Below are positions 8,095 to 30,949 of a DNA stretch of 38,557 nucleotides, piece after piece. The notes under the pieces were generated by a model. The model ran no database searches and had not been told where the DNA came from. It was given only the letters and a program-made list of their open reading frames with translations. Numbering within the stretch: position 1 is the stretch's first letter; each line of letters opens with the position of its first letter. Both the position numbers and the translations under genes were made by a program. Source of the stretch: an uncultured Clostridia bacterium. Lineage in GTDB: Bacteria; Bacillota; Clostridia; TANB77; CAG-508. The stretch is taken from positions 1 to 38,557 of the forward strand of contig CALXCA010000019.1 of the NCBI GenBank assembly GCA_944386685.1. The letters are read 5' to 3'.

Positions 8095-9327
8095 ATGAGA
8101 AAAACGAAGAAACTTAAGAAAATAATAGCTATAATTGTAATATCTGTAGTACTTATATATGTTGTTTATGCAATAATTCTATTATTGTTAAATCCTAATA
8201 ATGTGTATATTTTAACAAAAGGAGAATTATATGCTGAAGACGAGACTGTAGGATATATAATTAGAGACGAAAAAGTAATAAAAGATGATGAAAATACAAA
8301 TGGAATATATAAAATTGCAACAGAAGGTCAAAAAGTAGCTAAAGATGAATATGTTTTTAGATATTATAAAGAAAGTGAAAAAGAGTTAACAGACCAAATA
8401 GATGAAATAGACTATAAAATTCAAGAATTACTGGAACAAGAAAAAATTACACCATCAGCAGATATCAAAGTAATAGAAAATCAAATAGAAGAAAAATTAA
8501 TAAACCTTAATTCATTATTTAATTACCAAGAAATTATAGAATATAAAAATAATATTGAAGAACTTATTTCTAAAAAAGTTAATCATATTAGTCAACTTAC
8601 AAGTAACAATGAAATAAAAAAATTAATACAACAAAGAAATGAATATGAAAACCAATTAAAAAATGGCGCATCATACAAAACGGCAACCATAAGTGGAGTA
8701 GTTTCTTATAAAGTTGATGGATTAGAAGATCAGTTAAAACCAGACAATTTAGCAAATATTACAGATACATATCTAGAGAGTCTAGATCTTAAAACAGGAC
8801 AAATTATATCAAGTAGTACAGAATATGGTAAAGTAATTGATAATTTTAAATGTTATATAGCAGTAATTATAAATTCTGAATTAGCACAACAAGCAAAAAT
8901 AGGAGACAAGGTGACACTTAGAATTTCTACAACAGAAGAAGATGAGGCAGAAATTGTACAAATAAATGAAGGAAGCGGAACCAGAACAATTATATTTGAA
9001 TTAAATAATATGTCTCAAAACTTAATTAATTATAGAAAAATTGCAGTAGATATTATTTGGTGGCAAAAATCAGGATACAAAGTACCAAATCAAGCAATTA
9101 TTACTAAAAATGTAAATGGACAAGATTTAAATTATATTATAAGAAATAAAAATGGAGTTCAAACAGAAATTCTAGTAAAAGTGGAAAAACAAAATGATAA
9201 ATTTTCGATTATATCATCATATGAAACAAAGGAACTTCAAGAATTAGGATTTAATGAAGATGATATAAAGAATTATAAAAAAATATCAAATTATGATGAA
9301 ATAATTTTAAACAATGATAAAAAATGA
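8095..9327 (+). CDS. HlyD-family-like membrane-anchored adaptor protein
   Basis: A 410-residue protein with a basic N-terminus and one transmembrane segment (about 9-32), followed by an extracellular region. A lipoyl-like half (ELYAEDETVGYIIRDEKV...GIYKIATEGQKVAKDEYVF, given in parts), a coiled coil around 95-190, the matching second half (ATISGVVSYKVDGLED) and beta-barrel segments follow. This is the layout of HlyD/membrane-fusion adaptors. In Clostridia a gene of this type is commonly found just before sepF, as here, which suggests a cell-envelope role. No transporter partner is encoded nearby. The start is awkward: AAAGGAG abuts ATG 8095 with no spacer, but no better in-frame start is visible. 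Confidence 0.7.
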   Translation: MRKTKKLKKIIAIIVISVVLIYVVYAIILLLLNPNNVYILTKGELYAEDETVGYIIRDEKVIKDDENTNGIYKIATEGQKVAKDEYVFRYYKESEKELTDQIDEIDYKIQELLEQEKITPSADIKVIENQIEEKLINLNSLFNYQEIIEYKNNIEELISKKVNHISQLTSNNEIKKLIQQRNEYENQLKNGASYKTATISGVVSYKVDGLEDQLKPDNLANITDTYLESLDLKTGQIISSSTEYGKVIDNFKCYIAVIINSELAQQAKIGDKVTLRISTTEEDEAEIVQINEGSGTRTIIFELNNMSQNLINYRKIAVDIIWWQKSGYKVPNQAIITKNVNGQDLNYIIRNKNGVQTEILVKVEKQNDKFSIISSYETKELQELGFNEDDIKNYKKISNYDEIILNNDKK

Positions 9328-9415
9328 TGTTTAGATTTGTTAAAAATAAAATCTAAGCAAATTATTACAAGAATATTACAAACATATTAAATTTTTATAA
9401 CACGAGTAAAAACTA

Positions 9416-10555: not shown

Positions 10556-11953
10556 ATGATACAAAAGAAATCAAAAAGAGGAGTTACATTAATAGCTCTT
10601 GTAATTACTATAGTAGTTGTATTTATTATTGCTGGTATTTCTATATCAGCCATAACAGGTCAAATGAATGGAATTACAAAAGGAGAAGAAACAAAAACAG
10701 AAGTAAATGTTGATGAAGAAAGAAACGCACTTAGTATAGTTGTACAGGAAACTATGAATTCTAATAATAAGGGAGAAATAGAAGAAGAACCATTAAGAAA
10801 CCATTTAGATGAACATATTTATCCTGAAAATTATACAAATTTTGAACATAGAGAAGAAAGCCGTTCATACATATTACAAATGGTGCCAACACAAAATTGG
10901 TATACAATAACAAAAGATGGAGAAATTTTAGATGGTATTGTAAATTTACCAATGATAGTTCTAGACAAAGATAATGCAGAACTAAATTGGAGAGAAACAT
11001 TACAATTAAATGCGATAATGAGATCAGATGAGGGGGATACTCCTATAACTGATGCAATATGGAGAAGTGACGATTTATCAATAATAGTTGTTGACGATAA
11101 TGGTTTAGTTACTGCTCAAGAAAAAAGTGGTGTTGCAACTGTAACTGTTGAAAAAGATGGATTAAAAGCAGACTGTGTTATAGTAGTTAAAAATACAGTA
11201 ACAATGTTAGAATTAAGTGAATCAGATGTTACTATAGATTTAAGTGTAGAAAAGACACATCAAGTAACTGGAAAATATTATCCAGAAGATGCTGATACAG
11301 GAATAAATTTAACTTATACAATAGCAGATACTAGTATAGCAACAGTAGACCAAAATGGACTAATAACAGGTTTAAAGAATGGTGAAACAGAATTAACTTT
11401 ATCTAATGATATGGGAATTTCAACAAAAGCAACTATAAAGGTTGTTACATCTCCTACAGGAATTAAATTAGATAGAGAATCAGTTACAACTACAGGATCA
11501 TTCCAATTACATGCTACTATTATACCAGAAACAGCAAATGTAAATACTGATTTAACATGGTCAAGTTCAAATAATAGAATTGTGAAAGTTGATGATTCTG
11601 GATATGTCAGAAAAGCTGGAAGTGGATATGCTGTTATAACTGTAAAAACAGAAAATGGAAAAACTGCAACTTGCCAGGTAACAATAAAATCTACAAATAC
11701 AAATAGACCATCTGGAGGAGGAGGATCTTCTGGTGGAGGTGGATCATCTTCCGGAGGTGGAGGATCAAGTTCAGGATCAAGTGGATCAGGAGGAAGTTCA
11801 AGCTCTTCAAGTAGTGGAGGATTTTTGGGAGAGGCAATTATAGCAGTAGGTGCAGGTGCAGGAATTGGAGCTGCTGTAGCAGGACCTGTTGGTGCAGTTG
11901 TTGGTGGAATTATAGGAGCAATTGGAGCAATTGGCTCATGGCTTGGATTCTAA
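10556..11953 (+). CDS. Pilin-like-anchored BIG2/Ig-like surface protein, current C-terminal version (glycine zipper)
   Basis: A 465-residue protein predicted to be exported. Residues 5-36 (KKSKRGVTLIALVITIV and so on) resemble a type IV prepilin leader, but the usual Glu at +5 is Ala. A globular part follows (about 40-130), then three bacterial Ig-like BIG2 domains (about 130-212, 213-298 and 299-377), each ending in NGLVTA-, NGLITG- or SGYVRK-like signatures. A Gly/Ser linker spans about 383-425 and a glycine-zipper hydrophobic tail GIGAAVAGPVGAVVGG (about 440-455) ends the protein. AGGGGA precedes ATG 10556. The linker contains the left 28-bp inverted repeat, so everything after residue 416 lies on the candidate invertible segment. 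It is probably transcribed from the sepF-divIVA promoter. Function is unknown; adhesion or envelope interaction is only suggested by the domains. Confidence 0.85.
   Translation: MIQKKSKRGVTLIALVITIVVVFIIAGISISAITGQMNGITKGEETKTEVNVDEERNALSIVVQETMNSNNKGEIEEEPLRNHLDEHIYPENYTNFEHREESRSYILQMVPTQNWYTITKDGEILDGIVNLPMIVLDKDNAELNWRETLQLNAIMRSDEGDTPITDAIWRSDDLSIIVVDDNGLVTAQEKSGVATVTVEKDGLKADCVIVVKNTVTMLELSESDVTIDLSVEKTHQVTGKYYPEDADTGINLTYTIADTSIATVDQNGLITGLKNGETELTLSNDMGISTKATIKVVTSPTGIKLDRESVTTTGSFQLHATIIPETANVNTDLTWSSSNNRIVKVDDSGYVRKAGSGYAVITVKTENGKTATCQVTIKSTNTNRPSGGGGSSGGGGSSSGGGGSSSGSSGSGGSSSSSSSGGFLGEAIIAVGAGAGIGAAVAGPVGAVVGGIIGAIGAIGSWLGF
11775..11802 (+). repeat. Left 28-bp inverted repeat of the candidate DNA-inversion switch (IR-L)
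   Basis: A perfect 28-base match, in inverted orientation, to 13023-13050. It begins GATCAAGTGG and ends GGAAGTTCAAG, and encodes part of the Gly/Ser linker (residues 407-416 of the + strand protein). The matches stop sharply at both ends: 11774 is G where the other copy has T, and 11803 is C where the other has T. Confidence 0.95.
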
Positions 11954-11973
11954 AAAATATTATTTTTAATTAA

Positions 11974-12040
11974 ATAAAAAAACAATAATTGTATTTTAAA
12001 ACCACTAAAGTTTTTTATTACAATTATTGTTTTTATTTTT
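11974..12040. terminator. Bidirectional terminator between the two convergent cassettes
   Basis: A long AT-rich hairpin pairs the AAACAATAATTGTA region (about 11979-11992) with TTACAATTATTGTTT (about 12018-12033). It is flanked by an A-tract on the left and a T-tract on the right, so it can end transcription in both directions. Lying inside the segment, it would serve whichever cassette is in the expressed position. Confidence 0.75.
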
Positions 12041-12046
12041 TATTTA

Positions 12047-13048
12047 CTAAAATAATGAAATATGTTTTTTTATTAATTTATCAATATTTTCATGATAATA
12101 TTGAATTAAGAAATCAATTTCATTCTGCGTTATATAACCTTTTGACATAGGTATTTTTAAATATTGAACATTATATAACTCAAATGCTTCTTCAGGAATG
12201 TATTGTTCAAAGTCTTCATAAGTAAATAATCCATATTTATCTACATCTGCTTCCATTTTTTCTTGATTATAGCTAATTGTTTCTCTATCAATTTCAAAAA
12301 TATTGCAGAATTCTTCTATCATTGCTGAAACTGATAATATATCATTTGTGAAGCATGTTAAATGTTTATTTGTTACAACTTCATAAACACCAGTATATTT
12401 TTCTTCTATTATTACATTAACTAATTGTATTTTTTCTAATTGATTATTAGAAGTTTGTTTTACAAAATGATGTCCTATATATTCTTTATAATTTGTCTCA
12501 GTTAATGAAATGTATTTATTTAATTCAATATCATAGAATCCATGGTCTTTTATTATTTCTATATCTGTTCCATCTGAGAAATATGCATGTATTATTTTGT
12601 GTTTACTATGTTCTCCATCATGATTTATTATATATCCTATACTTGCTTCATCATATTCTCCTGTAAACATATTCCATACAAGTAATGTTTCATCACCTGT
12701 TAAATCTTCAACTTTTACTTTTTCTCCATTTGCTAGAGTTATTAATGTTCCATCTGCAACACAACTTGACCCTCCAGAACTAGAAGAACTACTTGAGCTT
12801 GAACTTGAGCTTGATGAACTACTAGATGAGCTTGATGAAGAGCTTGAGCCTTTATTGCTAGATGTATTTCCTGTTGCCCACGCTACTAAACCAGCTACAG
12901 CACCAATTACACCACCAACAACAGCACCTACTGGACCTGCTACAGCTGCACCTATTTGTGCTCCTGTATAAGTTAAAACAACTTCATCTACCCATGGAAA
13001 TGCTCCATTACTATTATTAGAACTTGAACTTCCTCCTGATCCACTTGA
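12047..13048 (-). CDS. Silent alternative C-terminal cassette: glycine zipper, poly-Ser linker and Hint domain; no start codon
   Basis: An open frame of 333 codons on the minus strand, closed upstream by TGA (13051-13049). Its first in-frame ATG is only at 12670, inside the Hint domain, and no ribosome-binding site or promoter is visible, so it is not expressed as it stands. Residues 1-10 are the Gly/Ser stretch encoded by the right inverted repeat. Residues 30-50 are a glycine zipper nearly identical to that of the + strand protein (IGAAVAGPVGAVVGG). Residues 68-91 are 24 consecutive serines using four codons. A Hint (hedgehog/intein) domain runs from about 96 to 241: nucleophile-position C96 in CVADGTLITL, VEDLTGDE, the block-B-like histidine H169 in KDHGF, and the ending VYEVVTNKHLTCFTNDIL. 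About 92 further residues follow, of unknown role. Hint domains cleave or splice proteins at the N-side of that Cys; activity here is inferred. An annotation beginning at 12670 would miss the catalytic Cys. Confidence 0.8.
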   Translation of the reverse strand, partial: SSGSGGSSSSNNSNGAFPWVDEVVLTYTGAQIGAAVAGPVGAVVGGVIGAVAGLVAWATGNTSSNKGSSSSSSSSSSSSSSSSSSSSSSSSGGSSCVADGTLITLANGEKVKVEDLTGDETLLVWNMFTGEYDEASIGYIINHDGEHSKHKIIHAYFSDGTDIEIIKDHGFYDIELNKYISLTETNYKEYIGHHFVKQTSNNQLEKIQLVNVIIEEKYTGVYEVVTNKHLTCFTNDILSVSAMIEEFCNIFEIDRETISYNQEKMEADVDKYGLFTYEDFEQYIPEEAFELYNVQYLKIPMSKGYITQNEIDFLIQYYHENIDKLIKKHISLF

Positions 13049-13050
13049 TC
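13023..13050 (-). repeat. Right 28-bp inverted repeat of the candidate DNA-inversion switch (IR-R)
   Basis: Reverse complement of 11775-11802 without a mismatch. On the minus strand it starts the Hint cassette; the base just outside it (T instead of G) turns the preceding codon into TGA, closing the frame in the silent position. Confidence 0.95.
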
Positions 13051-13065
13051 ATACTTAAATTTTAG

Positions 13066-13127
13066 AACAAATACAAATTAATATTTATATGTAAAAAACT
13101 ACTTTGCACAAACAAATACAAATTAAT
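13066..13127. repeat. Two 17-bp direct repeats between the switch and the recombinase gene
   Basis: The sequence AACAAATACAAATTAAT occurs exactly at 13066-13082 and again at 13111-13127, 45 bases apart. They lie in the 224-base gap between IR-R and the recombinase start and could be binding sites for the recombinase or a regulator. The low complexity of the region tempers this. Confidence 0.55.
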
Positions 13128-13167
13128 TGGCAGTAAAAGAATATATTCAGATTGCATACAATTTATG

Positions 13168-13196
13168 TTGACAAATAGAAAACTAAAATATATAAT
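13168..13196 (+). promoter_or_regulatory. Consensus promoter for the tyrosine recombinase gene
   Basis: A perfect TTGACA (13168-13173) and a perfect TATAAT (13191-13196) with the ideal 17-base spacer, leaving a leader of about 70 bases before the recombinase start. It lies outside the invertible segment, so recombinase expression should not depend on orientation. Confidence 0.75.
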
Positions 13197-13274
13197 TTTT
13201 TAAATCTAAAAGTATTATAAATAATATCAAATTTTGCAAAAATAATTTACAAATTTATATAATTTAGGAAAGGA

Positions 13275-14312
13275 ATGAAGTTTAATATGAGAACTAAAAA
13301 ATATATGTTAATAGCATATATTATAAACATTAGAAAAAATATTAAATTAAAAAAAGAAAAGAAAACTATAATTAGCATTGCACAAGAAATAGAAGAATAT
13401 AAATATAAAATAGGAAAAACTAAAGATAATTCATATTTAACAAATATTGCTACATTGGAAAGGATTAAAAAAAGTGACTTTGCTAATATTTCAATAAATA
13501 AAGTAACCAAAGTTCAAATAGAAGAATTTTTACAAAAAGAAAGAATAAAATCTAATGCAACAATAAAAAAAGAGTATAGAATGCTAAAACATGTATATGA
13601 ATATGCAAAATATAATAATTATATTTCAAATAACTATTTTGAGGGAATTAATTCAATTGAGAAACCTAAAAGTTTTAAAGAAGATAGGGATGTTATTGCA
13701 CTTACAATCTTTGAACAAAACAAATTAGAAAATTATTTAAAAAAACATGAGTCAAAATTTAATAATATTATATTATTATGTCTATACACAGGTATGAGAA
13801 TAGGAGAAGTTTTAGCTTTAAATTATGAAGAAGATATTGATTTTGAAAACAAAATGATAAAAATTACAAAAACATTAACAAAAAATATAAATAAAAAAAC
13901 AATTATAGGACCAACAAAAACAAAATGTGGAAAAAGAAATATAGAAATAAATGAATTAACAGAGGAAATTATAAAAAATTCTTTAAAAAACAAAATTGAA
14001 AATAAAAATAAAGTTTTATATTGTAAAAATGATGGACAACTATATGCAGATAATACAATAAATTCAGCATTTAAACGAATATGTAAAAAAGCTGGTATTG
14101 ATAGAAATGTAAATACACATATGTTAAGACATACATTTGCAACTAGATGCATAGAAGCTGGTGTAGATTTGCCTGTATTACAAAAAATAATGGGACATGC
14201 CAATATATATACAACCATTGATATTTATGGTGATATCTTTAATTATTATAAACAAGAAGAAACTAAAAAGGTAATAGAATATTTAAAAAGAAAAGAAATG
14301 CTTTTGGCATAA
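13275..14312 (+). CDS. Tyrosine recombinase (phage-integrase family), candidate invertase
   Basis: Site-specific DNA strand exchange enzyme of 345 residues. The N-terminal SAM-like core-binding domain (about 60-150) is followed by the catalytic domain (about 160-335) with the family residues: Arg in TGMRIGEVLAL, Lys near TKTKCGKR, the H-x-x-R box in HMLRHTFATR, His in MGHANI and the Tyr nucleophile in TTIDIYGDIF. All catalytic positions appear present. It lacks the tight size and neighbours of the chromosome-dimer enzymes XerC/XerD, and no phage or transposon genes surround it. Lying 225 bases outside a 28-bp inverted-repeat pair, it most likely acts on that pair (inference). ATG 13275 almost abuts its AGGAAAGGA; ATG 13287, four codons in, has more normal spacing and may be the real start. 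A housekeeping Xer role cannot be excluded. Confidence 0.9.
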   Translation: MKFNMRTKKYMLIAYIINIRKNIKLKKEKKTIISIAQEIEEYKYKIGKTKDNSYLTNIATLERIKKSDFANISINKVTKVQIEEFLQKERIKSNATIKKEYRMLKHVYEYAKYNNYISNNYFEGINSIEKPKSFKEDRDVIALTIFEQNKLENYLKKHESKFNNIILLCLYTGMRIGEVLALNYEEDIDFENKMIKITKTLTKNINKKTIIGPTKTKCGKRNIEINELTEEIIKNSLKNKIENKNKVLYCKNDGQLYADNTINSAFKRICKKAGIDRNVNTHMLRHTFATRCIEAGVDLPVLQKIMGHANIYTTIDIYGDIFNYYKQEETKKVIEYLKRKEMLLA

Positions 14313-14377
14313 AAGAGTAAGATTAGGCTTAAATATTACGAAATTGTTAAATGTATGTTACAATTTCGTTAATACTA

Positions 14378-15714: not shown

Positions 15715-18102
15715 GTGGCTAAAAAAAGAAGTAAAAAAAAGAAAAAGCAAAATAATACTCAAGATATTGGCTTAGTACTTGTAATTATTTTAAGTATATT
15801 ATTAACAGTTTTAATATATACTCAATCAGGGACAGTTGGAATTGCATTAAGTGATTTTTTTGGTGGAATGTTTGGATTTTTAAAATATATTTTACCAATA
15901 GGGTCTTTTGCAGTAGCAATAAAAATGGCTTGTGTTGACGAAGATGGCTATATATCATCAAAAATTTTTCAGTATACATTATTATTAATATTTATAGCTG
16001 TAATATTAAGTGTTATTCAAATATATAACGGAGAAATAAATATAGAACAAAATATATCAGAAATTGTAAAAGACGCATATCAACTTGGAGAAAATAATAT
16101 TGGAGGAGGAGCATTAGGAACAATTGCAGCAGTTCCACTATTTAAGTTATTTGGAAAAATTGGTACAATTATATTAAGTATAGGTGCAGCAATTATTTTA
16201 TTTGCAACAACATTTGGAATAAATGTATCAGAAATTATAAGAAATATGATGCAAAATGCTGTTGATAATAGTAAAGAAAAACATGAACAAAAACTAGAAG
16301 AAAGAGAAGAAAAAAATAATAGAAGAAGAGAAAAAATTGCTGTTGCAAGAGAACAAGCGGAAAAAGAAAAATTAACCTTAAAAGAAAAGAAAGCAAAATT
16401 AAGAGAAGAAAATAGAAGAGCTTATTTAGATGTAGATGACCAAGAAAAAGAAGAACAAATAAAAATTAATTTAAATGGAAGAATAAATTCAGAAAACCAA
16501 CAACCAGCATCAGAGCCAGATTTTATAGAAAATGATTTATTTAAAAAAGAGGAAGAAAAAAAAGAAGACAAAACAAAACAAGTTTTACAATTAGAACATG
16601 CAATATCTGTTGAAGATGAAAATTATCAATACCCACCAATAGAATTATTAAGTAAAGGTGAGAAAAAAGCAATAAAAGGTGGAGCTAAGGCGCTAGCAGA
16701 TGTTGCAACAAAATTACAAAAAACTTTATATAGTTTTGGAGTACAAGCAAAAGTAGAAAATGTTACAGTTGGACCTGCTATAACAAGATATGAATTAAAA
16801 CCAGCAGAGGGAGTTCGCGTTAGTAAAATTGCAAATTTAGCTGATGATATAGCATTAAATTTAGCAGCAGAAACTATTAGAATAGAAGCTCCAATTCCAG
16901 GAAAACAAGCTGTTGGAATAGAAGTACCAAATCAAGAAAAAGAAATGGTACATTTAAGAGAAGTATTAGAAAGTGATGAATTTGAAGATAGTAAATCTAA
17001 AATGAGTGTAGCACTTGGAAAAGATGTTGCAGGAAAAGTAATAATTGCAGATATGGCAAAAATGCCACATACATTAATTGCTGGTTCAACAGGTTCTGGT
17101 AAGAGTGTTTGTATTAATACAATAATAACAAGTATTATTTATAAGGCAAAACCAAGTGAGGTTAAACTTGTTATGGTTGATCCAAAAGTAGTTGAATTAT
17201 CTGTTTATAATGGTATACCACATTTATTAATTCCAGTTGTTACAGACCCAAAAAAAGCAGCAGGGGCTTTGGCATGGGCAGTACAAGAAATGGATAATAG
17301 ATATAATTTGTTTGCACAAAAAGGTGTTAGAGATTTAAAAGGATATAATGCATTAGTAGAAAAAGAAGAAGGAACGGGAAAATTACCACAAATATTAATT
17401 ATTATAGATGAGTTAGCAGATTTAATGATGGTTGCAGCAAAAGATGTAGAAGATTCTATATGCCGTTTAGCACAAAAGGCAAGAGCTGCTGGAATGCATT
17501 TAATAATTGCTACACAAAGACCTTCTGTTGATGTTATTACAGGTATTATTAAAGCAAATATTCCATCAAGAATAGCATTTGCGGTATCATCACAAGTAGA
17601 TTCTAGAACAATACTAGATCAGGTTGGAGCAGAAAAACTATTAGGAAAAGGTGATATGTTGTTTTATCCAACAGGTGCAACAAAACCAACAAGAATACAA
17701 GGTGCATTTGTATCTGATGAAGAAGTAGAAAAAATAGTTTCATTTGTTAAGTCAAATGGAGAGGCTACATATAATGAAGATATTTTAGATACAATAGAAA
17801 ATAGTGGTAAACCAGATAAAGAAATTCAAGAAGTTAATTCTAAAGAATCTGGAGATAAAACAGATGAACATTTAATGGAAGCTATTGAACTAGTAATAGA
17901 AACTGGTCAAGCATCTACATCATTTATTCAAAGAAGATTTAATGTTGGATATGCACGTGCAGGAAGAATAATTGACCAAATGGAAGAAAGAGGAGTTATT
18001 TCTGGATATCAAGGTAGCAAGCCACGTCAAGTATTAATGTCAAAAGAACAATGGGAAGAACTTAAAATGGGAACAGCACCTGTAGAAGAAAATGTAAATT
18101 AA
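15715..18102 (+). CDS. ftsK: DNA translocase FtsK/SpoIIIE
   Basis: Membrane-anchored hexameric motor that pumps chromosomal DNA through the division or sporulation septum. The 795 residues show a Lys-rich N-terminus, about four transmembrane segments (about 18-38, 45-70, 82-105 and 140-172), and a charged linker to about 300. The motor follows, with the Walker A motif GSTGSGKS (457-464), Walker B IIIDELADLM (about 562-571) and ATQRPSVDVITG. A C-terminal winged-helix gamma domain (LIQRRF-like SFIQRRFNVGYARAGRIID) reads polar DNA sequences. The start is GTG 15715; the AGAGAGGA 12 bases upstream is followed first by an ATG-TGA dead end (15704). Whether it acts in division, sporulation or both cannot be told from the sequence. 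Confidence 0.93.
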   Translation: MAKKRSKKKKKQNNTQDIGLVLVIILSILLTVLIYTQSGTVGIALSDFFGGMFGFLKYILPIGSFAVAIKMACVDEDGYISSKIFQYTLLLIFIAVILSVIQIYNGEINIEQNISEIVKDAYQLGENNIGGGALGTIAAVPLFKLFGKIGTIILSIGAAIILFATTFGINVSEIIRNMMQNAVDNSKEKHEQKLEEREEKNNRRREKIAVAREQAEKEKLTLKEKKAKLREENRRAYLDVDDQEKEEQIKINLNGRINSENQQPASEPDFIENDLFKKEEEKKEDKTKQVLQLEHAISVEDENYQYPPIELLSKGEKKAIKGGAKALADVATKLQKTLYSFGVQAKVENVTVGPAITRYELKPAEGVRVSKIANLADDIALNLAAETIRIEAPIPGKQAVGIEVPNQEKEMVHLREVLESDEFEDSKSKMSVALGKDVAGKVIIADMAKMPHTLIAGSTGSGKSVCINTIITSIIYKAKPSEVKLVMVDPKVVELSVYNGIPHLLIPVVTDPKKAAGALAWAVQEMDNRYNLFAQKGVRDLKGYNALVEKEEGTGKLPQILIIIDELADLMMVAAKDVEDSICRLAQKARAAGMHLIIATQRPSVDVITGIIKANIPSRIAFAVSSQVDSRTILDQVGAEKLLGKGDMLFYPTGATKPTRIQGAFVSDEEVEKIVSFVKSNGEATYNEDILDTIENSGKPDKEIQEVNSKESGDKTDEHLMEAIELVIETGQASTSFIQRRFNVGYARAGRIIDQMEERGVISGYQGSKPRQVLMSKEQWEELKMGTAPVEENVN

Positions 18103-24604: not shown

Positions 24605-24836
24605 GGGTCGGTCCCTTTTTTTGTTGGGGTCGGTCCCAAATCAAACCAATATATAAAGTGTTTTTTATACCTTGTGTGTCGCAACCTACAAAAGAATTTT
24701 AATAAGTAGGTTGCTCCAAATCGCATTCGCTACGCTCATTTGGTCGCTTACGCGGTATTGCAAAACACTTTATATATTGGTTTGATTTGGGACCGACCCC
24801 AACAGCAAACGCCAAGCACGGGAAAAGGACCGACCC
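24605..24836. repeat. Palindromic repeat element (family 3) with 42-bp perfect inverted arms
   Basis: A perfect 42-bp inverted repeat (24623-24664 with 24762-24803) encloses about 97 bases containing another 9-bp hairpin (GCAACCTAC 24681-24689 with GTAGGTTGC 24706-24714) and a GC-richer core (CGCATTCGCTACGCTC). Outside the main arms a further pair, GGGTCGGTCC (24605-24614) and GGACCGACCC (24827-24836), continues the palindrome. Nothing in it is coding. Base composition differs clearly from the surrounding AT-rich DNA, which points to a mobile (MITE- or REP-like) origin. It fills most of the 424-base gap before ruvB and would fold into a very stable hairpin in RNA. Confidence 0.9.
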
Positions 24837-28207: not shown

Positions 28208-30949
28208 ATGTATATAAAAACAAAGAAAACAAAAAATAAAATGATTTTAACAATAGTTATATTAATTATTGCATTAGCAATTATAACTTTATGTGTACAA
28301 ACAATTTTAAAAAATAATTTAACAAATAAATCAATTATAGCGGGAAGAGATATTGCAAAAAATGAAGCAACAGAAGAGTTAGAACAAATTGATTGGATTG
28401 AAGTTATCAATGCACCTTTTTGGGATGGATCAATTACCTATAGTAATCCTGTAACGATAGAGAATAATGGCAAAACAGTACAAATACGTGGAAATTATAA
28501 CTGCCCTGGAAGTAATTTGATATACTATATTCCAGAGGAGAAGCAACAACAAAGTTTTAGCTTTAATTATGATATTGACTTTGGAGATAGTTTTAATTCA
28601 GCAGGTTTTTTAATAGGAGCGAAAAAAGTAGATAACACATTACATGGATATATGATTAGTTTTAATCATGATGGATGGCATCCTTCTATATATCAGTGTA
28701 AGCCTGAATTTAGTTGGTTCACTGAATGCGGAAATAAAACTGGAGCTATATGGAAATTTTCATTTCCTATTTTGGAATATAATTCTTTTAATGAAATGCT
28801 TGAATTAAATTCAGACAAATGGCAAAATGGAGATTATTCTTATGGTATTCAAAAGACTTTACTACAAGTATTTGATTTACCAGATTATAGTACACCAACA
28901 TTTCTTCAATCTGCACATAGTAGTGGTATTATAAAAATAACATCTACTCCAAATCAAATAATTATTTCATGCGAAGGAGTTTCTAATGAAGATTCTTCTG
29001 AAGCTGAATGTTTTAATACAACTATTGATATATCACCAGACGATGAAATCGGTAATGGTTTTGGTTTCTTTTCAACTCATTACATACATGGTTGTAACAG
29101 ATATGGAAAGTTCGAGATAAATAATTTTAATGCCAAATTTGAAGACTTAGAACCACATAATTTACGAGTAGATCCAAATGGAGGAACATGGAATGGGGCA
29201 TCAGCAGTCTCAACAGTAGAAGGAGAATATGGAGATGAAGTAGAAATACCACTACCAACAAGACCAGGGTATAATTTTGCAGGATGGACACAAACAGGAA
29301 ATAGTGGAAGTATTTCATCATTAACAGAAGATGCAATTTATACATTTGGAGAAGATGCAGAAACAGATGATACCATAACAGCACAATGGACGAAAGTTGA
29401 TGTAAGTAAAGAATGTAGAATAGACACAGGAGAAGACTATGGAGATATAGTAGAGCCAGGAAATACAGAACCAGTAAAATATGTAGTAGAAGGACAACAA
29501 ATAATATATGAATTAACAGCAACAAATACAGGAACAGTAGATGCAACAGCATTAATAAAAGACTCAGCACCAGAAGGAACAACGTTTGTAGAAGATAGTA
29601 TAAAATTAAATGGAAGTCCATATACCAAAGAAGATGGAACAGCTTATACAGAGGAAGATTTAGAAAATGGAATAGAAATACCAGTGTCGAAGGATACAAG
29701 TTCAACACTATCATTTAAAGTAAAAATAAATGAATTAGAAAATGGAACAATGATAGAAAATACAGGAAAGTATAAAGATATAACAATAACACAAGAAACG
29801 GAAGAAAAAGAAACAAATGAAGTAGAATTCATGTATTTTAATACATATGGAGAGCCAATAGTAACCCAATCCAAAACAATGGAAACAGAAACAGGAGAAA
29901 GCTATGTAGTAAGTGGAGAAAAAATAATATATAAAATAATAGTAAAAAATAATGGATTACTACCAGAAGATGTAATAATAAAAGATACTGTGCCAGAAGG
30001 AACAACATTTGTAGAAGGAAGTATAAAATTAAATGATTCAGAATATACAGAAGAAGATGGAACAGCACCAACAGAAACAGAACTACAAAGTGGAATAATA
30101 TTAAGCATACCAGCAGAGACAAGTTACACATTAAGTTTTGAGGTAACAGTAAATGAAGGATTAGAAGATGGAACAAAAATAGAAAACACAGCAACAGTAA
30201 ATGATTTATCAACAAATACAGCCTCAATTGAATATTCAAATCCATATGATGATCCAACTACGGATCCAGACGAAAACCCAGACGACAATCCAGACGACAA
30301 TCCAGATGAAAACCCAGATGAAAATCCAGATGAAAAACCAGACGACAATCCAGATGAAAATCCAGATGAAAATCCAGATGACAACCCAGACGAAAACCCA
30401 GATGAAAATCCAGATGACAACCCAGACGAAAATCCAGATGACAACCAAGATGACAACCCAGACGAAAACCCAGATGAAAACCCAGATGACAACCCAGACG
30501 AAAATCCAGATGACAACCAAGATGACAACCCAGACAAAAATCCAGACGAAAATCCAGATGAAAACCCAGATGAAAACCCAGACAAAAATCCAGACGAAAA
30601 CCCAGACGAAAACTCAGACGACAACTCAGATGATAATCAAGATGATAACTCAGATAATAACTCAAATAATAACCAAAACAATGATAATACAAACAATAAT
30701 CAAAATAACAATTCAAATAATAATACTGGAAATAATTCAAATAACACGAACAATAACGGAAGCACAACAAACAACGGAAATAAAACCAATAATGGAAATA
30801 CAACAGGAAAAGGAGACACAACAACAGCACAGGAGAACATACCAAAAACAGGAGGAATAAGAAATACATTAATAATAATTGTAGCAATGTCATTAGGAAC
30901 AGCAATATTTTATATAAGATACAAAAAACTAAATTCATATGTAAAATAA
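28208..30949 (+). CDS. Sortase-anchored surface protein with InlB-type repeat, two DUF11 domains and an NPDE repeat stalk
   Basis: A 913-residue cell-wall protein. Domains in order: an N-terminal membrane/signal segment (about 12-34); a unique region about 55-315 rich in aromatic residues, possibly a binding domain, not recognised; an InlB/Listeria-Bacteroides-type repeat (about 318-397: VDPNGGTWNG, RPGYNFAGW, ITAQWTKV). Two DUF11-type repeats follow (about 398-545 and 548-678), each with APEGTTFVEDSIKLN- or VPEGTTFVEGSIKLN-like cores. Then a stalk of about 32 Asn-Pro-Asp-Glu/Asp units (681-806) and an Asn-rich spacer. The sorting signal is IPKTGG (878-883), a hydrophobic segment and a basic tail. 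IPKTG is a recognised variant of the LPxTG motif; no sortase gene is in the window. Position of the start rests on ATG 28208 with CAAGG upstream; initiation may depend on the mini-ORF leader. Confidence 0.88.
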   Translation: MYIKTKKTKNKMILTIVILIIALAIITLCVQTILKNNLTNKSIIAGRDIAKNEATEELEQIDWIEVINAPFWDGSITYSNPVTIENNGKTVQIRGNYNCPGSNLIYYIPEEKQQQSFSFNYDIDFGDSFNSAGFLIGAKKVDNTLHGYMISFNHDGWHPSIYQCKPEFSWFTECGNKTGAIWKFSFPILEYNSFNEMLELNSDKWQNGDYSYGIQKTLLQVFDLPDYSTPTFLQSAHSSGIIKITSTPNQIIISCEGVSNEDSSEAECFNTTIDISPDDEIGNGFGFFSTHYIHGCNRYGKFEINNFNAKFEDLEPHNLRVDPNGGTWNGASAVSTVEGEYGDEVEIPLPTRPGYNFAGWTQTGNSGSISSLTEDAIYTFGEDAETDDTITAQWTKVDVSKECRIDTGEDYGDIVEPGNTEPVKYVVEGQQIIYELTATNTGTVDATALIKDSAPEGTTFVEDSIKLNGSPYTKEDGTAYTEEDLENGIEIPVSKDTSSTLSFKVKINELENGTMIENTGKYKDITITQETEEKETNEVEFMYFNTYGEPIVTQSKTMETETGESYVVSGEKIIYKIIVKNNGLLPEDVIIKDTVPEGTTFVEGSIKLNDSEYTEEDGTAPTETELQSGIILSIPAETSYTLSFEVTVNEGLEDGTKIENTATVNDLSTNTASIEYSNPYDDPTTDPDENPDDNPDDNPDENPDENPDEKPDDNPDENPDENPDDNPDENPDENPDDNPDENPDDNQDDNPDENPDENPDDNPDENPDDNQDDNPDKNPDENPDENPDENPDKNPDENPDENSDDNSDDNQDDNSDNNSNNNQNNDNTNNNQNNNSNNNTGNNSNNTNNNGSTTNNGNKTNNGNTTGKGDTTTAQENIPKTGGIRNTLIIIVAMSLGTAIFYIRYKKLNSYVK
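30253..30628 (+). repeat. 12-bp coding tandem repeat (NPDE/NPDD stalk)
   Basis: About 32 units of the type AAYCCAGAYGAM encode Asn-Pro-Asp-Glu or -Asp. A higher-order unit of 72 bp (six tetrapeptides ending in NQDD) is repeated exactly around 30419 and 30491, showing recent duplication. Unit number is likely to vary between strains, changing stalk length in steps of four residues without a frameshift. Confidence 0.9.

Follow-up and report, generated by a model that had tools for sequence, protein, structure and literature searches.

A candidate two-state DNA-inversion switch that would exchange the C-terminus of a pilin-like surface protein for a predicted Hint module in an uncultured Clostridia bacterium

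Introduction

Can a bacterium change the end of a surface protein by turning round a piece of that gene's own coding DNA? The question is raised by a locus in an uncultured Clostridia bacterium (Bacillota; Clostridia; TANB77; CAG-508; assembly GCA_944386685.1), where a gene for a pilin-like protein with bacterial immunoglobulin (Ig)-like domains meets, through a 28-base-pair (bp) inverted repeat, a convergent coding cassette that has no start, beside a gene for a tyrosine recombinase. The stretch analysed here (the window) is the whole of contig CALXCA010000019.1 (C19), positions 1 to 38,557, from a 1.93-Mb draft genome of 49 contigs that we call G000. We consider it likely that the locus is a two-state, shufflon-like DNA-inversion switch of the protein's C-terminus, run by the neighbouring tyrosine recombinase, much as an earlier note on this DNA had proposed.

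Results

The features of the locus are listed below with their coordinates in the window and their strand; G136 and G109 are related genomes, ORF stands for open reading frame and aa for amino acids.

10556–11953, plus strand: ORF of the short-form gene in the expressed position, 465 aa
11775–11802, plus strand: left copy of the 28-bp repeat, the predicted crossover site, inside the linker where the constant coding region ends; an exact copy lies at the same joint in G136
11803–11953, plus strand: short C-terminal cassette in the expressed position, a glycine-zipper-like tail and stop; G109 has a similar short tail
11954–12046, no strand: spacer between the two convergent cassettes, with an A/T-rich long imperfect palindrome at 11958–12054
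12047–13022, minus strand: silent C-terminal cassette (hydrophobic glycine-rich stretch, Ser-rich linker, Hint domain, helical tail), start-less before codon 127
12326–12763, minus strand: predicted Hint fold in the silent cassette, from Cys96 (P0001), based on an AlphaFold2 model and Foldseek
13023–13050, minus strand: right copy of the 28-bp repeat, with an outer flank that is unlike that of the left copy and creates an in-frame TGA
13066–13082 and 13111–13127, plus strand: two exact direct repeats of 17 bp (AACAAATACAAATTAAT), 45 bp apart, in the stretch that leads from the right inverted repeat to the recombinase promoter
13168–13196, plus strand: sigma-70 consensus promoter TTGACA-17-TATAAT (12/12; consensus match only), facing the recombinase gene and outside the invertible segment
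13275–14312, plus strand: tyrosine recombinase of 345 aa, likely the invertase (PF00589, E = 3.8e-32)

Both copies of the repeat (11775–11802 and 13023–13050) are identical, which upholds the earlier description of a perfect 28-bp inverted repeat linking two convergent coding cassettes. In its full extent the repeat covers 41 nucleotides (nt) at 88% identity (11775–11815 / 13010–13050), of which the outer 28 nt are the identical ones. A repeat of this length is beyond chance, since the longest exact inverted repeat within 3 kb reached only 13–19 nt in 40 dinucleotide shuffles of the window. When four genomes were searched for the 28-mer at no more than 3 mismatches, two copies were found in the window's genome (only at this locus), one in G136 and none in G109 or in a third relative, G083, the last of which has just the first 14 bases. 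The low complexity of the repeat is a concern, because it encodes a Gly/Ser linker, and part of the match could come from homology between the cassettes. The two cassettes agree in all eight codons that lie within the repeat, whereas 12 of the 20 same-residue codons in the adjoining homologous stretch differ (Fisher p = 0.008; p = 0.02 on inclusion of a ninth codon that differs and lies partly beyond the repeat). Since the repeat codons are identical and their neighbours have diverged, common protein sequence is by itself not enough to account for the identity of the repeat in DNA; the pattern is as expected of a site that is homogenised by exchange or kept as a site.

The only longer perfect inverted repeat in the window is a 43-bp pair (24622–24664 / 24762–24804) in the intergenic region before ruvB; with GGGTCGGTCCC motifs in and beside it, this pair looks like a miniature inverted-repeat transposable element or another small element and not like a promoter switch.

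Read in the phase of the repeat, the minus-strand cassette is open for 333 codons (13048 to 12050), which has a probability of about 8e-16 at the base composition of the window. Its first ATG, GTG or TTG comes at codon 127 and a TGA is the codon just before the cassette. Inverting 11803–13022 in silico produced a single ORF of 740 aa in place of the 465-aa one, which reproduced the in-frame inversion of the earlier note. Whichever cassette occupies the right side has TGA in place of GGA as its junction codon, and the silent cassette is therefore closed to read-through. Within 300 bp upstream of the minus cassette, on its own strand, the best promoter matches reached 9/12, and the scan found 40 sites in total compared to 31.7 (standard deviation 6.0) expected; the earlier statement that this cassette lacks a promoter is not one that such a scan can prove. 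In the spacer (11954–12046), a terminator scan returned no consensus site. The palindrome at 11958–12054 would probably end transcription from both sides.

The 465-aa protein consists of a pilin-like N-terminal hydrophobic segment, bacterial Ig-like domains, a Gly/Ser linker and a glycine-rich hydrophobic tail. In profile searches it was matched by Big_2 (PF02368, E = 3e-18), and N_methyl (PF07963) scored 14.7 bits, under the cut-off of 21.2; a prepilin peptidase (PF01478) is encoded elsewhere in the same genome. Inversion would not merely add a Hint domain to this protein, as the earlier note had it. Instead, one glycine-rich hydrophobic tail would be replaced by another such stretch followed by a Ser-rich linker, the Hint domain and a helical tail.

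Between the right repeat and the recombinase gene lie 224 bp. The 17-bp motif AACAAATACAAATTAAT found there has three matches in the window at no more than 2 mismatches, the third at 16454, where 0.29 were expected, and the two direct repeats are possibly accessory binding or regulatory sites, as candidates only.

An ortholog of the N-terminal part is present in 4 of 210 genomes of the genus, and these four carry the protein in two forms. The window's genome has the short form of 465 aa and G109 a short form of 455 aa; G136 (record L043) has a continuous 738-aa ORF at the same locus, with the Hint cassette attached, the exact 28-mer at the joint and an N-terminus 97.4% identical to that of the window, and G083 (record L044) has a 729-aa Hint form. 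The silent cassette matches the C-terminus of the long form in G136 at 91% identity. The earlier note had proposed looking in relatives for the cassette as part of an independent gene with its own N-terminus; in G136 (738 aa) and G083 (729 aa) it is instead the in-frame C-terminus of the ortholog of the same protein, at the same locus. Among metagenomic proteins, P0002 (short, 455 aa) and P0004 (Hint, 725 aa) are 97.4% identical over 380 N-terminal residues. Because both C-termini sit on nearly the same N-terminus, the end of the protein changes between very close relatives. The N-termini of P0004 and P0006 are 99.2% identical and their hydrophobic stretches are different. Beyond the window's genome, a search of 55 related genomes for the cassette gave only two weak matches (G036 and G050). 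Viral contigs held neither a relative nor the 28-mer and thus gave no sign of a phage-borne version.

Among the near-identical proteins P0002, P0004, P0006 and P0009 (G109-like), the glycine-rich stretch itself varies, with or without a Hint domain after it, and P0004 and P0009 have one type of it, as if this stretch were perhaps an exchanged payload in its own right. P0005, in which transporter sequence follows the hydrophobic stretch, is probably a chimeric assembly and was excluded from the argument, although it stands in the identity table.

The adjacent tyrosine recombinase of the earlier note is confirmed by its PF00589 match and its distance from the right repeat. Aligned with a homologue on contig C45 of the same genome, it has the catalytic set R175, K217, H282, R285, H308 and Y318; we take the R, K, H, R, H, Y motif set and the roles of these residues from the family. 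The G136 ortholog is 83% identical and lies before rsmD, as in G000, with its start cut by a contig end. In the 55 related genomes the closest homologues are the integrase on C45 (75% identical) and one in G048 (67%). Both carry an N-terminal Cys-rich region of roughly 100 residues, which we take to be the arm-site-binding region and which the window enzyme is without: when the first 140 aa of the C45 homologue were compared with 11951–14320 by tblastn, only the enzyme's own start (residues 124–140) and one 14-residue match (E 3.1) were returned. By sequence, the solved structures closest to the enzyme are the 'Int protein' entries 6emy, 6en0 and 6emz, presumably the Tn1549 integrase (Int). 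The best NCBIfam matches were XerA, XerC and XerD models, all under the cut-off, with no Rci-named model among the matches listed, and tblastn against plasmids gave only distant integrases (<60% identity) among the matches listed. From these comparisons we infer that the recombinase may be an arm-less integrase kept for a local task, likely as an invertase. The C45 integrase is longer, and its neighbour is a small putative excisionase (named by eye), an arrangement like that of a mobile element.

The AlphaFold2 model of the cassette has a mean predicted local distance difference test (pLDDT) score of 73.7. All ten-residue blocks from 101 to 320 score 80–98, those of the Hint part (12326–12763) score 72–98, and residues 7–93, which hold the hydrophobic stretch and the Ser-rich linker, fall below 50. 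Foldseek matched the model to the Ssp DnaB mini-intein (E 1.5e-8), a bacterial intein-like (BIL) domain of C. thermocellum (1.6e-7) and Hedgehog (5.1e-7). The cassette is predicted by this model to carry a horseshoe Hint fold. The Pfam Hint model matched 8 of the 25 members of the alignment, P0001 not among them, and intein_Nterm of NCBIfam scored 15.3 bits on the cassette compared to a cut-off of 24.5. Cys96 (position 1) is conserved in at least 90% of the 25 sequences, and His169, the block-B His, is invariant. The C-terminal His-Asn and the C-extein nucleophile of splicing inteins are absent from the cassette, where the fold ends ...NDILSVS and is followed by a helical tail that is conserved across the family in the alignment. 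Because Cys1 and the block-B His are conserved and the C-terminal His-Asn is absent, cleavage after the linker, and not splicing, is predicted. A published account describes BIL domains as giving mainly cleaved products and Hedgehog as using the first acyl shift only (PMC7664689). Among the best 120 of 278 database matches, related Hint domains occur on proteins with subtilase (PF00082), List-Bact repeat (PF09479) and leucine-rich (PF13306) domains. According to another paper, HINT directly precedes the toxin in polymorphic toxins (PMC3482391); a polymorphic-toxin reading was not adopted for this locus, in which only the conserved helical tail follows the Hint domain.

Compared to G136, the ratio of nonsynonymous to synonymous substitution rates (dN/dS, by NG86) was lowest in the N-terminal part (0.10), followed by the Hint part (0.14) and the recombinase (0.17); for the genes other than the recombinase, YN00 gave larger dS values (0.36–1.09) and smaller ratios. 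With G083 as the outgroup, the Hint part showed 6 nonsynonymous and 8 synonymous changes on the window branch and 5 and 8 on the G136 branch, with 3 unassigned. At a transition/transversion weight of 2, no more than 6 nonsynonymous changes of 14 on the window branch would be expected under neutrality with P = 0.006, on small counts. The silent cassette and the recombinase thus carry signatures of purifying selection, which in the cassette would be the same if selection had acted before the last inversion. The intact frame and these counts led us to reject the cassette as a pseudogene.

Two further observations were made on surface proteins of the same genome. On contig C3 (L093; 3000–6505 and 9116–11137), a large serine-recombinase-like ORF (by eye) directly abuts a pilin-like Ig paralog on its 5' side. 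This paralog lacks its first ~25 codons, and it looks as though an element had gone into the codons for the signal peptide; a second paralog nearby is 92% identical in DNA over 1.3 kb. In the window, 28208–30949 encodes a surface protein of 913 aa whose repetitive region contains 23 NPD[E/D] motifs and whose C-terminus has, by eye, an IPKTG-type sortase-like signal.

Discussion

In the switch that we propose, the recombinase would exchange strands within the 28 bp, the 1.2-kb segment would flip and the constant part of the gene would read into the other cassette. In the state present in the window, the predicted surface protein, pilin-like and Ig-like, would have a short hydrophobic tail as its end; in the flipped state it would carry a second hydrophobic stretch and a predicted self-processing Hint domain. 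The convergent cassettes would have a common terminator, so that only one is expressed. Inversion would be frequent and reversible, with the recombinase acting on the 28-bp repeats, and the displayed form would be decided by a population split and not by regulation. In the Hint state Cys96 would form a thioester, as in Hedgehog and intein-like domains, and the cut after the Ser-rich linker would release the protein or pass its carboxyl end to a nucleophile, whereas in the short state the hydrophobic tail would be retained, either free or inserted in the membrane. A bolder proposal, which we hold only tentatively, is that a self-processing Hint domain has come under DNA-inversion control through an integrase domesticated by loss of its arm-binding domain. 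The phase-variable trait would then be the post-translational fate of the protein and not its antigenic sequence or expression level: clonal cells would display the protein either with its hydrophobic tail free or as a precursor that removes its own C-terminus or attaches it covalently. Of the inversion switch put forward by the earlier note, the anatomy and the frame hold up, as do the silent cassette, which is intact, and the recombinase gene beside it, and the relatives with the cassette do not have it as the independent gene that would have refuted the switch; inversion in a living population is a proposal.

Several results weigh against this switch. The full arrangement was seen in one genome only, and both C-terminal forms were seen only between relatives. 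No 740-aa, Hint-attached form of the window's species was found among 22 protein-database matches or the best 120 of 278, and the cassette occurs as a separate 207-aa ORF in a database cluster of 12 members (P0143), which is tabulated as a protein encoded by the window and the representative of which must derive from another sequence, since 2 of its 207 residues differ from those of the window. In G136 neither a second repeat nor a reversed short cassette was seen, the place for them being an assembly gap, and no short cassette was found elsewhere in that assembly; the contig ends in a multi-copy sequence resembling an insertion sequence (IS) 436 bp past the Hint stop and the next contig starts inside the recombinase. 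In G083 and G109 no recombinase ortholog was found, the best matches having 38% identity over about 245 residues; G109 has a multi-copy IS-like end before rsmD. Because the Hint form (G083) and the short form (G109) occur without this ortholog, other routes for exchange of the C-termini exist. Finally, the dS of the recombinase (0.57) is higher than in five neighbouring coding stretches (0.15–0.38; NG86), and its history may therefore differ from that of the locus.

A wider search adds to these points. A Hint-profile search of 385 genomes of the order gave matches in 14 genomes, the window's included, and in 12 stretches from 11 of these 14 no inverted repeat of at least 17 nt joined two cassettes. 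The exact repeats of at least 17 nt in these stretches were hairpins or closely spaced palindromes, N runs, a pair with 139 nt between its copies that lies upstream of a gene, and a single A/T-rich pair far apart. Where the ORF arrangement was read (4 of the 12), the separate Hint ORFs of G368 and G419 proved to be same-strand frame splits and not inversions. For this reason the 207-aa proteins P0144 and P0153, which have an internal start, were not counted as silent cassettes of other species, and P0003/P0142, judged from the protein sequences, look like a frame split too. In L155 (G419:C1, 7515–9247) and L154 (G368:C25, 3–3424) a Hint ORF comes after a pilin-like ORF, on its strand and in a different frame, which would be a frameshift or decay in a related system. 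In L156 (G381:C6), an A/T-rich 19-nt inverted repeat (9214–9232 / 9371–9389) lies about 100–275 bp upstream of an intact 572-codon pilin-like Hint gene, and is possibly an invertible promoter and possibly due to chance.

The alternative that fares best is that one flip, or rare flips, took place through the recombinase or the repeat, after which the lineage was fixed in the short form with the Hint cassette heading to decay. That only the separate-ORF state was found for this species in the database matches, and that G109 has the short form without a recombinase ortholog, would both follow from such a history. Yet the cassette is fully open, and its 6 nonsynonymous and 8 synonymous changes on the window branch (P = 0.006) point to purifying selection; the two repeats have also stayed identical, and the recombinase retains its catalytic residues at a dN/dS of 0.17; we regard a frozen inversion as unlikely. 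Less probable still is ordinary homologous recombination, as at polymorphic toxin and adhesin loci, by which the cassette would be an orphan module, the repeat merely the common linker at which incoming modules recombine, and the recombinase an integrase remnant that has nothing to do with the repeat. The different glycine-rich stretches of P0004 and P0006 on 99.2% identical N-termini, the C-termini that differ in genomes without a recombinase ortholog, and the mobile-element-like setting of the closest homologue in the genome (75%), a longer integrase with a putative excisionase, all speak for it. The orphan, however, lies inverted and convergent and stops exactly at the repeat in the right phase, and the recombinase ortholog is kept at the same locus in two species under purifying selection. 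An assembly artefact, in which two strains or a repeat-induced misjoin produced a false inverted cassette, is very improbable even though the contig that makes up the window comes from a draft genome in 49 contigs, given that no foreign second N-terminus lies beside the cassette, that the P0143 cluster has the cassette as a separate 207-aa ORF in a representative differing at 2 residues, and that 28 bp is below the usual assembly k-mers, which are longer.

The switch that we prefer over these alternatives has its closest parallel in the R64 shufflon (Rci and the PilV pilin), where a tyrosine recombinase likewise adjoins invertible cassettes with alternative C-termini of a pilin-type protein, here one that is pilin-like by prediction, and the inverted sites lie in frame at the joint of constant and variable coding sequence. 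The R64 sites are described as asymmetric and conserved on the core and one arm only (PMC11852207); in the window, similarly, 28 bp are common and the outer flanks differ. Unlike the R64 shufflon, with its seven sites and four segments, this locus has two sites and two cassettes (and no further copy in the genome at no more than 3 mismatches), lies on the chromosome of a clostridial relative and has a Hint module as the alternative end. In pneumococcus, PsrA inverts hsdS between 15-bp repeats (IR1; PMC7096588). Both systems have a chromosomal tyrosine recombinase beside short inverted repeats that join an expressed gene to silent copies, but in pneumococcus the products are restriction specificity subunits and there are three repeat pairs, whereas here the product is a predicted secreted protein. 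Clostridia are not strangers to inversions: one survey gives 14 of 15 signature-positive Firmicutes samples (PMC5903667).

The recombinase resembles integrases of the Tn916/Tn1549 type in its catalytic R, K, H, R, H, Y set and in having 'Int protein' entries as its nearest structures, and is unlike its longer integrase homologues in lacking the N-terminal Cys-rich region and standing alone at the switch. In intragenic invertons, reportedly described by Chanin et al. in 2024, an inversion within the coding sequence is said to alter the protein; here, the flipped cassette is a complete alternative module with its own stop, and a recombinase gene is adjacent. Bacterial intein-like and Hedgehog Hint domains are normally fixed parts of their proteins. 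The predicted domain of the cassette is like these in its Hint fold, its first Cys and its conserved His, and unlike the usual ones in that it lies near the C-terminus, on an invertible cassette, with no HN pair at the end of the fold. In searches of open-licence literature, the titles and abstract openings of the papers listed showed no report of a Hint domain switched by inversion.

Shufflon-like switching of C-termini is already known, and what is unusual here is the Hint payload, together with a probably domesticated recombinase. Inversion switches known so far act as on/off switches of promoters or swap recognition domains, whereas at this locus the exchanged end is a predicted autoprocessing domain. 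If true, this would be a two-site, shufflon-like C-terminal switch on a clostridial-lineage chromosome, with a recombinase that resembles a tamed integrase, and inversion would decide the maturation or anchoring of a surface protein. The locus would also offer a natural setting for the function of clostridial Hint domains, with the same protein made with and without Hint in one clone.

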